Position numbers and translations under genes: made by a program. Source: Frankia casuarinae (GTDB lineage Bacteria > Actinomycetota > Actinomycetes > Frankiales > Frankiaceae). From it: a stretch of DNA of 64,000 nt. How positions within the stretch are numbered: the first letter of the stretch is position 1; every line of letters begins with the position of its first letter. The DNA lies in the NCBI RefSeq assembly GCF_000013345.1, contig NC_007777.1, positions 682,001 through 746,000 on the forward strand, read 5' to 3'. The notes beneath the pieces were generated by a model. That model made no database searches. It was given only the letters and a program-made list of their open reading frames with translations, and was not told the origin of the DNA. This document shows, one piece after another, positions 18,552 through 22,822 of the stretch.

Positions 18552-20474
18552 ATGTGCGGGATCATCGGTTACGTCGGCGACCAGGCGGCCCTGGATGTCG
18601 CGTTGAACGGTCTGCGGCGGTTGGAGTACCGCGGTTACGACTCGTCGGGTGTCGCCGTGGTCGGCGCCGGGGCACTGCGGACGGCGCGTCGTGCCGGCAA
18701 GCTGTCCAACCTCGAGAAGCTGCTCGCCGAGAATCCGGATTCCAGGCCGATGCCCGGCACCACAGGCATGGGGCATACCCGGTGGGCCACGCATGGTGGA
18801 CCAACCGACGCGAATGCCCATCCGCACACCGACTGCACCGGCGCCATCGCCGTCATCCACAACGGGATCATCGAGAACTTCGCCGCGTTGCGGGTCGAGC
18901 TGGAGACGGTCGGCCACGAGCTCGCCAGTGAGACCGACACGGAGGTCGTCGCCCATCTCCTCGAAGTCGAGCTTGCCGGCACCGGCACCGGCACCGGCAC
19001 CGGTGCTGGTGCTGGTGCTGGTGCCGACCGCGGGTACGACGGGGGCGCGCATCCGCTGACCGTCGCGCTGCGACGGGTCTGCCGGCGGCTGGAAGGCGCG
19101 TTCACCCTGGTCGTGCTGCACCGCGACTTCCCGGAGGTGGTTGTCGGGGCCCGGCGTAACAGCCCGCTGGTCGTGGGGCTCGGTCAGGGGGAGACCTTCC
19201 TCGCCAGCGACGTCTCGGCCTTCATCGCCCACACCCGGGAGGCGCTGGAGATCGGGCAGGATCAGGTGGTCGAGGCCCGCCGGGACGGTGCGACGGTGAC
19301 CGACTTCGGCGGCCAGATCATCGAGGGTCGGCGCTACCACGTCGACTGGGATGCCAGCGCCGCCGAGAAGGGCGGCTACCCGTACTTCATGCTCAAGGAG
19401 ATCAGCGAGCAGCCGACCGCCCTGGCAGACACGCTGCGCGGTCGGCTTTCCGCCGACGGTGCGATCGTGCTCGACGAGGAGCGGCTGTCTGGCCAGGATT
19501 TCCGGGACGTGGACAAGGTCTTCATCGTCGCCTGCGGCACCGCCTACCACGCCGGCCTCATCGCGAAGTACGCAATCGAGCACTGGACCAGGCTGCCCTG
19601 CGAGGTCGAGATGGCTTCGGAGTTTCGCTACCGCGACCCGGTGCTCGACCGGTCCACCCTCGTCATCGCGATCAGCCAGAGCGGCGAGACGCTGGACACG
19701 CTGATGGCGGTCAAACACGCGCGCGAGCAGAAGGCGCGGGTGCTGGCCATCTGCAACACCAACGGTTCTACGATCCCTCGGGAGTCCGATGCGGTGCTGT
19801 ACACCCGCTGCGGCCCGGAGGTGGGGGTCGCGTCCACCAAGACCTTCCTCGGGCAGGTCGCCGCGTGCCTTCTCGTCGGCCTGTTCTTGGCCCAGGTGCG
19901 CGGCGTGCTCTACGGCGACGAGGTCGCCGCGTACGTCGAGCGGCTCCAGCGCATGCCCGAGCTGATCGAACGGACGCTGGGAACGGTCGAGCCGGTGCGG
20001 GAGCTCGCCCGCGCCCTGGCCGACGCGAAGGCGGTGCTATTCCTCGGTCGTCATGTGGGGTACCCGGTGGCCCTGGAAGGGGCCCTCAAGCTCAAGGAAC
20101 TCGCCTACATGCACGCCGAGGGGTTCCCGGCGGGGGAGCTCAAGCACGGGCCGATCGCGCTCATCGAGCCCGGCCTGCCGGTGTTCGTCGTTGTGCCGTC
20201 CCCGCGGGGTCGTGCCAACCTGCACGGAAAGATCGTTTCCAACATCCAGGAGGTCCGGGCGCGTGGCGCCCGCACGATCGTGATCGCGGAAGAGAGCGAC
20301 ACCGCCGTCGAACCGTTCGCCGATCATCTCATCCGCGTGCCCGCGACCGCGTCGCTGTTCGCGCCCCTGGTCACGACGCTACCGCTGCAGGTCTTCGCGT
20401 GCGAGCTGGCGCTTGCGCGCGGCCTCGATGTCGATCAGCCGCGTAACCTGGCGAAGTCGGTGACAGTCGAGTAA
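18552..20474 (+). CDS. glmS: Glutamine-fructose-6-phosphate aminotransferase (isomerizing)
   Basis: Makes glucosamine-6-phosphate from fructose-6-phosphate and glutamine. The N-terminal glutaminase starts MCGIIGYVGDQAALDVALNG with catalytic Cys2. The two SIS sugar-isomerase domains follow (ISQSGETLDTLMAVKHARE, then LGRHVGYPVALEGALKLKEL), with the C-terminus LDVDQPRNLAKSVTVE. At 640 residues it is longer than the usual 610-625. The extra length includes a GT/GA low-complexity insert at about residues 143-158 in the glutaminase domain, encoded by a palindromic repeat. No glmS ribozyme pattern is seen upstream. Confidence 0.97.
   Translation: MCGIIGYVGDQAALDVALNGLRRLEYRGYDSSGVAVVGAGALRTARRAGKLSNLEKLLAENPDSRPMPGTTGMGHTRWATHGGPTDANAHPHTDCTGAIAVIHNGIIENFAALRVELETVGHELASETDTEVVAHLLEVELAGTGTGTGTGAGAGAGADRGYDGGAHPLTVALRRVCRRLEGAFTLVVLHRDFPEVVVGARRNSPLVVGLGQGETFLASDVSAFIAHTREALEIGQDQVVEARRDGATVTDFGGQIIEGRRYHVDWDASAAEKGGYPYFMLKEISEQPTALADTLRGRLSADGAIVLDEERLSGQDFRDVDKVFIVACGTAYHAGLIAKYAIEHWTRLPCEVEMASEFRYRDPVLDRSTLVIAISQSGETLDTLMAVKHAREQKARVLAICNTNGSTIPRESDAVLYTRCGPEVGVASTKTFLGQVAACLLVGLFLAQVRGVLYGDEVAAYVERLQRMPELIERTLGTVEPVRELARALADAKAVLFLGRHVGYPVALEGALKLKELAYMHAEGFPAGELKHGPIALIEPGLPVFVVVPSPRGRANLHGKIVSNIQEVRARGARTIVIAEESDTAVEPFADHLIRVPATASLFAPLVTTLPLQVFACELALARGLDVDQPRNLAKSVTVE
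18978..19025. repeat. 48-base palindromic hexamer repeat inside glmS
   Basis: Four ggcacc units (18978-19001) are directly followed by ggtgct, ggtgct, ggtgct, ggtgcc (19002-19025). The halves are inverted complements apart from three C-to-T changes that still allow G-U pairs in RNA. The DNA is in frame and encodes GTGTGTGTGAGAGAGA. It can fold as a long hairpin in the glmS mRNA. Confidence 0.9.
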
Positions 20475-20672
20475 GCCCTTCCCCACACGGCGCCTTCCCC
20501 ACACGGCGCCTTCGGCGCAGTGTGGGGGCCCCTGGCATCGGGCGCCGTTCGGGGTTTCTGTCAGCTCGCCTTCGGCGAGCTTCCTGGGGTAGTCGACGGC
20601 GCCTTCGGCGCAGTGTGGGGCCCCTGGCATCGGGCTGCGGGGGCTCGGGCCTGCGGGTCAGGGGCCTGCCGG
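20475..20672. repeat. Palindromic TTCG-loop repeats after glmS
   Basis: The convergent gap between glmS and the SWIM gene holds a family of GC palindromes. One stem-loop around ggcgccttcggcgc with flanking ccccacac/gtgtgggg arms spans about 20491-20525. A nearly 40-base direct repeat (cttcggcgcagtgtgggg then cccctggcatcggg) occurs near 20503-20542 and 20596-20634. A further perfect hairpin, gctcgccttcggcgagc, lies at 20564-20580. They resemble REP-type elements and could also terminate both convergent genes. Confidence 0.75.
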
Positions 20673-21233
20673 TCAGGTGGACGGCGTCGCTCCGTGCTGA
20701 CGGCCGTGCCAGGCGACCGTCGCCTCCCACAGCGCATCGGCGACGGCGTCGTTGTCGTCGGCGGCGTCGAGCAGGGTCTCGACAAGTTCGGCGCGAGGGG
20801 CGCGGCTGAGGAAGACGCGCATCGCGGCGTGGACCGGGTCGTCGGTGAAGAGGGTCTCCTCGCCGAGGATCGTGCCGTCCTCCCCCTCGTCGTCCTCGGC
20901 GAGCCCCGCCGAGCCGGTGGCCACGAGGGCGACCGCGACCGCGTGCCGGCAGAACGAGCCGGTGGATCCCTCGGTGCAGGTACAGCCCGTCCGTGGCCCG
21001 TCGTCGGCCGCCTCCAGGCGGACCTCGTACGAACCGTCGTCGTCCACCGTGCCGGATGCGTTGGTGGGGCGGATACGGAGTTGTTCGACTCGACCGAGAA
21101 GAGCCAGATTCACCCCTTCCATGAAGACGTCGGTGCCGGCGTGCTGTGCGCAGGCGCGTTCCTCGAAGGCTGCCTCGAGCGGGGTGACGGCGTCTCCGCC
21201 GTGCCCGTTCTCCCCGGACCCCGAAATGATCAC
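20673..21233 (-). CDS. SWIM zinc-finger domain protein
   Basis: The exact function is unknown. The 186-residue protein carries a SWIM-type CxCxnCxH motif, CTCTEGSTGSFCRHAVAVAL, at about residues 82-101. SWIM domains bind zinc and act in DNA or protein interactions. An acidic stretch (AEDDEGEDG) and a helical C-terminal region (AELVETLLDAADDNDAVADA) follow. The GTG at 21233 has a gtagga element upstream. The gene is convergent with glmS and divergent from the PadR gene. Confidence 0.85.
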   Translation of the reverse strand: MIISGSGENGHGGDAVTPLEAAFEERACAQHAGTDVFMEGVNLALLGRVEQLRIRPTNASGTVDDDGSYEVRLEAADDGPRTGCTCTEGSTGSFCRHAVAVALVATGSAGLAEDDEGEDGTILGEETLFTDDPVHAAMRVFLSRAPRAELVETLLDAADDNDAVADALWEATVAWHGRQHGATPST

Positions 21234-21300
21234 TGCTCAATCCTACGGAATTCGCGCGGTTCGGGGATGCCTAGCCGAGTAGGTCTTGTCATCGATTGCA

Positions 21301-21316
21301 TCGCGATATATCGTGA
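21301..21316. promoter_or_regulatory. Dyad upstream of the PadR gene (candidate operator)
   Basis: tcgcgatatatcgtga is a 16-base dyad with 14 matching positions and a perfect core cgatatatcg. It lies 60 bases before the PadR start in a short AT-rich patch, between divergent genes. PadR regulators commonly bind AT-rich dyads and repress their own gene, so autoregulation is a reasonable inference, not shown by the sequence alone. Confidence 0.5.
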
Positions 21317-21375
21317 GCCTACGTGATGGAGCGTGAGCGGATTGCTCCGGTCGCGCCGATTCGAAGGGAATGATC

Positions 21376-22287
21376 ATGGTTTCACAGGTGATGCCGGGCC
21401 CATGGGGCCACTGGGGATGCGAGGCCGGGTTCGGCCCGTCCCGGCTGCGGGACTTCTTCGAGGCGATGAGCGCTTGGGGGCAGTGTGGTGGCCGGTCGGA
21501 GGCGGTGGCCGGCGAGCAGGACCACCCCGAGAGCGGTCGGGCCGGTCGCGTCGGCCGTGGCGGCCACGGTGGGCATCGTGAGCACGGTGGGCATCGTGAG
21601 CACGGTGGGCATCGTGAGCACGGTGGGCACGCGGGAGGCGGGCCGAGAGGCCGCCGGGGCGGACCGGGCTGGCCGTTCGGCGGCTTTCCCGGTCCGGGGT
21701 TCGGTCCGGGCTTCGGCGGCCCCGGCTTCGGTGGCCCCGGCAGCTTCGGCGGCCGTGGGCCGAAGGTGGGGCGGGGCGACGTCCGGGAGGCGCTGCTCGC
21801 GCTGCTGGCCGAGGAGCCCATGCACGGCTACCAGATGATCCGCGAGCTTGCGGAGCGCAGCGGTGGCATCTGGCGGCCGAGCCCGGGGTCGGTCTACCCG
21901 GTCCTGTCACTGCTGGCCGACGAGGGTCTCGTGCGCGCGGAGGAGGCGGAGGGCAAGCGAGTCTTCCATCTCACCGACGCCGGGCGGGCGCACGTCGAGG
22001 CACGCGCAGGGGAGCGCAAGCCGTGGGAGACTGCTGCGGCGGCGGTCGATGACGATCTCACCAGTTTGCGAACGCTGGCGTTCGCCGTCGGTGCGGCCAT
22101 CGTCCAGGTGGCCCAGGCCGGAGACGAAGCGCAGATCGCCGCGGCGCGGTCCCTGCTCGCCGAGACCCGCCGTGGTCTCTACCGGATCCTCGCCGGGGAC
22201 GACGTCGAGCCCCCGATGAGACCGGAGGGTGCCGCCACGGGCACCGGCGCGGACAAGGGCCGCACCGCTCCCGATGGCGACAGCTAA
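21376..22287 (+). CDS. PadR-family transcriptional regulator with His/Gly-rich N-terminus
   Basis: A DNA-binding regulator. The PadR winged helix lies at about residues 131-205: DVREALLALLAEEPMHGYQM, then SPGSVYPVLSLLADEGLV and EAEGKRVFHLTDAGR. The first 130 residues are unusual, with three GGHREH repeats (about 61-79) and a GPGFGPGFGGPGFGGPG run. The His repeats could bind Ni, Zn or other metals, but this is inference. The ATG at 21376 is preferred over 21370 for spacing from gaaggga. The last about 90 residues form a C-terminal helical region typical of dimerisation. The inducing signal and target genes are not evident. Confidence 0.88.
   Translation: MVSQVMPGPWGHWGCEAGFGPSRLRDFFEAMSAWGQCGGRSEAVAGEQDHPESGRAGRVGRGGHGGHREHGGHREHGGHREHGGHAGGGPRGRRGGPGWPFGGFPGPGFGPGFGGPGFGGPGSFGGRGPKVGRGDVREALLALLAEEPMHGYQMIRELAERSGGIWRPSPGSVYPVLSLLADEGLVRAEEAEGKRVFHLTDAGRAHVEARAGERKPWETAAAAVDDDLTSLRTLAFAVGAAIVQVAQAGDEAQIAAARSLLAETRRGLYRILAGDDVEPPMRPEGAATGTGADKGRTAPDGDS
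21565..21630. repeat. 18-base in-frame tandem repeat in the PadR gene
   Basis: The unit cacggtgggcatcgtgag occurs three times (21565-21582, 21583-21600, 21601-21618) plus a partial fourth copy. It encodes HGGHRE repeats. The period is a multiple of three, so copy-number changes would keep the regulator in frame. Confidence 0.9.
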
Positions 22288-22465
22288 GGACGACGGCAAC
22301 GGCGGATCGGCCCCAGGGCGGGCTGCGACGCACTGATCGGCGAAGCGTTGATCAGCGGGGCGCGGGCGCCCTCGGCGAGATGGGCGTGAACCGGCTGGCG
22401 GGGACCTCACCGGCCACCCCGGTGCCGACGGCGGCGCAACACCGCGTTTGTGGGAACCTTTCCGG

Positions 22466-22822
22466 GTGGCGGTGGTGGGCGTCGGAGTGGACGTGGTGGA
22501 TGTCGACCGGTTCGCCGCGACGCTGGCGCGCACGCCGGGCATCGCGATGAGGCTGTTCACCGCGACCGAACGCGGCCTCGCCCGGCCTGAGCGGTTGGCT
22601 GCCCGGTTTGCGGCGAAGGAGGCGGTCGCCAAGGTTCTCGGCGCACCCCCCGGTCTCGAGTGGCACGACACCGAGGTTGTTCTCGGTACCGGGGGGCGAC
22701 CGTCGTTACGGATCATCGGCACGGTGGCCGCCGCGGCGGCCCGGCTCGGCATCGCGTCCTGGCACCTCTCGCTCACCCACGACGGCGGCGTGGCCGTGGC
22801 GATGGTCGTCGCCGAGACCTGA
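22466..22822 (+). CDS. acpS: Holo-[acyl-carrier-protein] synthase
   Basis: Transfers 4'-phosphopantetheine from CoA to acyl carrier protein. The 118-residue product starts [20 protein letters not shown] with the metal-binding Asp. It has the family signature [15 protein letters not shown] with the catalytic Glu, and ends with the [14 protein letters not shown] strand. GTG 22466 fits the family N-terminus; a TTG at 22448 would add six residues. It is followed by nnr and alr, a common actinobacterial order. Confidence 0.94.

Follow-up and report, generated by a model that had tools for sequence, protein, structure and literature searches.

The window, a 64,000-nucleotide stretch of Frankia casuarinae DNA from a genome that consists of a single contig of 5,433,628 bp, contains a gene for a 303-residue PadR-family regulator at positions 21376-22287 (plus strand). 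The open reading frame extends from 21370 to 22287 (+) with an alternative upstream ATG at 21370, and its 305-residue form matches PF03551 at residues 142-210 (E=2.5e-20; 72.7 bits against a cut-off of 27), which places the protein in the PadR family. Translation probably starts at 21376, because orthologues begin at the aligned methionine (MTSQAIPGPWG or near it). An earlier sequence-only reading had the regulator span 21301-22287; its identification as a PadR protein stands, and position 21301 is the beginning of an upstream dyad rather than of the gene. The gene sits between acpS (22448-22822) and a divergent gene for a SWIM zinc-finger protein (20673-21233, minus strand; PF04434, E=2.2e-4), a possible second gene of the operator described below. 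No metal-transport gene was recognised adjoining PadR (by eye, with three genes tested against Pfam), which weighs against likening the protein to the E. coli regulator NfeR (YqjI). Elsewhere in the neighbourhood, a simple repeat encodes a low-complexity stretch, GTGTGTGTGAGAGAGA, around residues 142-158 of a glmS-like protein (named by eye; 18552-20474), and the region after the glmS-like gene (20380-20640) holds near-repeats reading PHCAEGAV on the minus strand, which may be a local duplication.

The protein begins with a Gly/Pro/Arg/Phe/His-rich tail of about 131 residues (21376-21768, +), predicted to be disordered from its model confidence and the composition of its homologues; the region of some 130 residues reported ahead of the winged helix is thus confirmed. 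It continues with a PadR winged-helix DNA-binding domain (21793-21999, +), supported by PF03551, by pLDDT blocks of 83-98 and by superposition on Rv3488, and it ends with two C-terminal helices (22021-22194, +), which are presumed from predicted secondary structure and conserved columns to be the dimerisation part. In particular, the AlphaFold model, built from 12 sequences, has a mean pLDDT of 63.9, where residues 1-127 lie mostly below 50 (except for a low-confidence helix at residues 21-37), the winged helix lies mostly above 90, and the helices at residues 216-248 and 251-273 lie at about 71-77. The top solved structures found by Foldseek are PadR and related winged-helix proteins; Rv0047c ranked above Rv3488 with a less tight fit.

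Upstream of the gene lies an operator-like dyad, TCGCGATATATCGTGA (21301-21316), a 16-mer whose inner part CGATATATCG (21304-21313) is a perfect palindrome; the palindromic element noted from the letters alone is therefore real. A consensus scan found one promoter in the upstream region, a predicted sigma-70-type TTGTCA-17-TATCGT (21286-21314, +; consensus matches only), whose -10 box is overlapped by the dyad, and TTGNC-17-TATCGT is kept in 11 of 13 orthologue upstream regions. The 16-mer pattern TCNCGATATATCGNGA, allowing one mismatch, has one location across the 5.43 Mb of the genome, its reversed control none; a 13-mer with two mismatches is not selective (45 + 61 matches versus 15 + 15 for the control). 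A shuffle test restricted to the window is weak, giving 2 hits (one place on two strands) versus a mean of 0.50, equalled by 15 of 100 shuffles. The main support for the putative operator is its conservation, which is strong: the dyad is unchanged or altered at one position before the gene in all 12 Frankiaceae sequences aligned, and the thirteenth sequence, from Demequina, has the GATATATC core. Further, a one-mismatch pattern search across 35 Frankiaceae genomes found the dyad in 33, the two others being G025, which has no close homologue, and G029, which has a more diverged site (L075). All 13 genomes of the genus have the dyad, with one further place each in G007 and G008 only. Four one-mismatch 13-mer sites within or beside other reading frames of this genome were considered as a regulon and judged to be chance. 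The sole strong site in this genome is PadR's own promoter, a result that counts against an NfeR-like reading.

The same operator core accompanies PadR homologues from other families. A core-domain profile found matches with E <=1e-25 in 63 out of 396 genomes from the phylum (own genome included; at most 8 candidates scored per genome), and 59 homologue loci (L051-L109) were read, best matches only. The GATATATC palindrome lies upstream in 54 of them, counting the window's own; it is missing from L087, L090, L094 and L098, and L061 is without upstream sequence. Among the 29 loci outside Frankiaceae, 25 have the palindrome no more than 250 bp ahead of the predicted start, versus 0.012 expected from composition, and the remaining 91,116 bp have none; start codons were set downstream of the palindrome by rule, which favours the upstream count, and the zero elsewhere is independent of that rule. 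Its lack in the other four of these loci weighs against the NfeR-like reading. The exact 13-mer occurs in 21 of the 396 genomes, before a family PadR in G000, G416, G222, G143, G242 and G381 and elsewhere in the rest. Moreover, sixteen named loci from Pseudomonadota, Actinomycetota and Bacillota were chosen by visual inspection, so as to cover different genera, among 127 and 106 matching plasmid records, and 12 of them have GATATATC within 400 bp before the homology (0.044 expected). In a thirteenth, from Rahnella, the palindrome precedes the first gene of a SIP-PadR pair, and L295, L297 and L299 have none. Literature searches returned no bacterial regulator for CGATATATCG and unrelated work for PadR combined with GATATATC, both judged by title; for PadR with histidine-rich, and for NfeR with PadR (word starts), the matches listed were unrelated.

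Additional arrangements of the core were seen among these genomes. Further GATATATC palindromes flanked by CG occur at L173-L177 (G377, G259, G302); two of them, at L176, stand by a MerR/TipAS-type gene with a family PadR about 0.9 kb off, and no family PadR was seen by those of L173-L175 and L177. In the alphaproteobacterial L293, L294, L304 and L305, the PadR gene is preceded by two GATATATC sites with a spacing of 17 bp, and the gene that follows it encodes a DUF2218 protein, a methyltransferase or a DUF1442 protein.

The genes around these sites share little. Clustering the open reading frames of 41 stretches, which include some other than PadR loci, gave few common partners, and gene neighbourhood was set aside as a functional clue. 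Four f9 genomes share an ABC1 kinase gene and two f19 genomes an ABC transporter gene; in L149 and L155, whose genomes belong to different families, a phosphoesterase gene adjoins PadR. From one family to the next the neighbours mostly change, and therefore the site goes with the gene. This bears on the explanation that some other regulator acts at the palindrome and controls both the PadR and the SWIM genes, which is very improbable: the site tracks the PadR subfamily through mostly unrelated neighbourhoods in three phyla, and it was found at none of 21 other Frankia PadR loci (22 were read; the lone hit, L017, is an N-terminal orthologue fragment in G005 and was set aside). All 19 genomes of genera g1 and g5 have the SWIM gene beside the operator (counting the fragments L193, L197 and L200), whereas the stretches read from g6, G013 and G014 and the other loci read do not.

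The tail of the Frankia casuarinae protein contains a (GGHREH)n-coding array at 21565-21629 (+), for which TRF reports 3.6 copies of the 18-bp unit CACGGTGGGCATCGTGAG at 100% match, confirming the repeated GGHREH units. Eight histidines are thereby spaced at every third residue (64, 67, 70, 73, 76, 79, 82 and 85), and ten histidines precede the HGY motif (L005), so that the extension is His-bearing. Elsewhere the array is scarce. The sequence-only reading had proposed a search for homologues with the same N-terminus, and the threefold GGHREH was found in no other protein read; its partial relatives are GGRHEH, present twice in L010/L039, and GGHREH, present once in L064. The other nine intact tails of the genus (L006-L014) have 2-4 histidines each before HGY, which weighs against an NfeR-like reading and against the GGHREH units as a functional element. 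Perfect identity and confinement to one genome speak for a recent, strain-specific expansion of the 18-bp array. A storage or moonlighting role for the His segment, as had been suggested, was rejected because the threefold array is confined to this genome among those compared; its orthologues do without it.

The longer view of the tail is different. Before HGY, the more distant proteins L044, L045 and that of Demequina have 14, 8 and 1 histidines; the 12 loci of genera g2-g6 have tail counts of 1-15, with some g5 orthologues at 8-15. The 29 loci outside Frankiaceae have a median tail of 63 residues in which His makes up 6.6% of residues (0-10 each), tail lengths and His counts in homologue loci depending on starts predicted by rule; five of these tails have zero His, including the mispredicted one-residue tail of L094. 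Four f9 proteins and the Demequina protein have 0-1 histidines in the tail, and PadRs of Moraxella, Sinorhizobium and Paenibacillus that lie behind the same core do without a His-rich tail; both results count against the NfeR-like reading. Overall, Gly/Arg/Pro-rich tails, often with His, are general in the subfamily, and the proposal of an unusual fusion does not hold, as long Gly-rich, often His-bearing tails recur among homologues. Judged by its sequence, the Frankia PadR is no odd fusion and belongs to a widespread subfamily sharing one operator core.

Several studied PadRs sense organic ligands, and the Frankia protein may accordingly regulate its own gene in response to a drug or other small organic molecule, its Gly/His-rich tail being a passive, low-complexity product of slippage. 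The perfect and strain-specific 18-bp array is what recent slippage would leave, ABC transporter genes adjoin some homologues, and PadRs without a His tail share the operator core. Against it, long tails with 6.6% His are usual in the loci outside Frankiaceae, and the ferric-reductase link and the kinship to NfeR, both given below, point to metals. This explanation is a possibility of some weight and remains the less probable one. A different use of the tail is suggested by its Arg/Gly stretch, where G95 and G96 are invariant and G92, R93 and R94 nearly so. Parts of this stretch are more constant than the histidines, and the operator core is ATATAT; the tail could thus be a second DNA-contacting or condensing arm, whose basic RGRRGG would act on the AT-rich minor groove or in clustering, with metal irrelevant. 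The tail's predicted disorder is silent on DNA contacts, the E. coli NfeR tail is shorter and His/Cys-rich, and such an arm is improbable.

The FAD_binding_9 domain is of the siderophore-interacting, ferric-reductase type, as in NfeF, and genes with this domain provide the ferric-reductase link of the operator core. In genus g7, six of eight non-self sites lie 104-143 bp before a FAD_binding_9 domain (G027, G028, G030, G031, G032 and G033), and the other two (G032:C147 and G033:C88:89602) do not precede one; the count of eight treats G034's single contig-end site as self-type. Across 30 Frankiaceae FAD_binding_9 loci, eight have GATATATC: the six of g7, one in G029 that lies farther from the domain, and one in G014, where PadR and FAD_binding_9 are adjacent and the site precedes the pair. 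The one FAD_binding_9 gene of the Frankia casuarinae genome has no operator, and a target of the nfeF type was thus sought and not found here; among the FAD_binding_9 loci of 62 other PadR-positive genomes, none of the best 30 of more than 100 matches has GATATATC. Both results weigh against the NfeR-like reading. On the ferric-reductase side (L219, L221, L223), the operator of G028 and G033 reads TCTCGATATATCGAGA, a perfect palindrome, and that of G031 is almost one; in these three genomes it differs from the self site.

A 93-row tree separates the other Frankia PadRs from the family (support 97/91) and places nfeR on the family side. There, nfeR is itself a long branch of odd composition within a cluster of long branches, which makes its placement unsure and weighs against the NfeR-like reading. 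Within Frankiaceae, one group (100/99) comprises six g7 sequences, the second copy of G014 and G015, and another (99/87) comprises the window's protein together with g1, g5, g6, G013 and the first copy of G014; only the former showed the ferric-reductase link. G014 (L065, L247) holds both subfamilies, and their presence in one genome suggests that they are separate lineages and not one diverged gene.

This division bears on the distribution of the gene among symbionts. Genus g7, which we take to be Frankia cluster 4, has homologues at E ~1e-45; that a reported absence from cluster 4 is a threshold effect was considered and dropped, since the tree puts the six g7 sequences in the sister subfamily. 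According to one report, Frankia clusters 1-3 have FRAAL1119 of Frankia alni in common, and two cluster 4 genomes lack it at 50% identity; the orthologue is listed there as a putative PadR-like regulator (PMC10252897). The table start of FRAAL1119 (1186573) lies 18 bases before the G001 match at 1186591, in frame, which identifies it as the orthologue of the window's gene. If g7 is cluster 4, the published absence fits this gene's subfamily, because the six g7 sequences form a separate one. G025 (g6) has neither a close homologue nor a site, which counts against a simple symbiosis story.

Similar sites are found with NfeR itself. In E. coli K-12 MG1655, nfeF and nfeR diverge and GATATATC precedes each, as ATCAGATATATCTAA before nfeF and TTAGATATATCTAA before nfeR (read from sequence); the third GATATATC in the 7 kb of E. 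coli lies inside mug, and querying E. coli genomes with the stretch between nfeF and nfeR returned mostly repeats, a result that was set aside. NfeR matches the Frankia protein by BLASTP (E=3e-14, 35% over 71 aa) and aligns to positions 1-133 of 149 in the family profile, where its 53 bits are no better than the 29-67 bits of Frankia paralogues, a score that weighs against the NfeR-like reading. The Cys pairs of the NfeR extension are said to matter for its nickel response; the Frankia tail has C15 and C37 as its only cysteines, neither of them conserved and neither forming pairs of the NfeR type. Passages of the literature describe NfeR as a repressor of nfeF that excess nickel relieves and, in a Klebsiella nfeR mutant, an 85-fold increase in nfeF with no in vitro metal phenotype (PMC7981267), as well as increased nfeR in nickel-exposed cells (PMC9508795). 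A passage that names Fe2+, not nickel, for YqjI (PMC5540944) counts against the nickel reading.

Taken together, the explanation favoured by analogy and sequence comparison, at about an even chance, is that the Frankia PadR is an autorepressor that works like E. coli NfeR, with a metal as its likely signal. A PadR dimer would bind the palindrome over the -10 box and block RNA polymerase at its own promoter, and the same dimer would perhaps block the promoter of the SWIM gene. Capture of a nickel-type transition metal by the tail would loosen the grip of PadR on DNA, and the strain's His array would be a local elaboration of an older Gly/Pro/Arg-rich, often His-bearing tail. The parts of this mechanism differ in strength. 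Binding of the site by the PadR protein is very probable, and repression of its own gene is probable. Metal as the signal is plausible and falls slightly short of an even chance, the tail histidines are tentatively proposed as the sensing part, and control of the SWIM gene is doubtful. The idea of a metal-responsive regulator at the adjacent dyad thus remains plausible through the kinship with NfeR, the shared operator core and the ferric-reductase link of the sister subfamily; the GGHREH units as its functional element are not supported.

A broader and rather speculative possibility is that these proteins form a multi-phylum guild of self-regulating PadR metal sensors whose common operator core, GATATATC, has flanks as in TCRCGATATATCGYGA for Frankiaceae and as in AGATATATCT for E. 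coli. To our knowledge, NfeR would be its one studied member. The Frankiaceae proteins would be split into a form tied to ferric reductase (in g7, presumably non-symbiotic) and a form kept in symbiont lineages, whose nickel-type tail would serve its own promoter and the SWIM partner. PadR regulators are numerous and mostly orphan, and an operator core that goes with a single subfamily through several phyla would put its unnamed PadRs forward as candidates for control by nickel or iron; the core leads to ferric-reductase-type genes in several lineages, namely E. coli, Rahnella, G014 and genus g7. Frankia, a nitrogen-fixing symbiont, would gain a candidate metal switch, one that a published phyloprofile gives as common to the symbiotic clusters (PMC10252897).

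Among known systems, the Rv3488-type PadRs (NF053635; PDB 5zhc, 5zi8 and 7wh4) have a similar winged helix, with Rv3488 chains superposing in Foldseek at an rmsd of 1.6-1.8 over 81 columns with 34% identity. The solved Rv3488 chain has 113 residues and thus lacks a long tail, and the Frankia protein scores 28.9 bits versus the equivalog's cut-off of 140, which places it outside that family. NfeR differs in that its tail is shorter than 60 residues and His/Cys-rich with Cys pairs, whereas the Frankia tail is without them; it is paired with the ferric reductase gene nfeF, whereas the Frankia PadR is paired with a SWIM-domain gene; and a nickel response is reported only for NfeR. The Frankia protein is accordingly described as working like NfeR and not filed as NfeR, because the Cys pairs and a ferric-reductase target were sought and not found. 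The two systems are alike in their PadR winged helix, their His-bearing N-terminal tail and their divergent gap, and in both E. coli and Frankia a GATATATC-centred palindrome lies in the regulator's own promoter.
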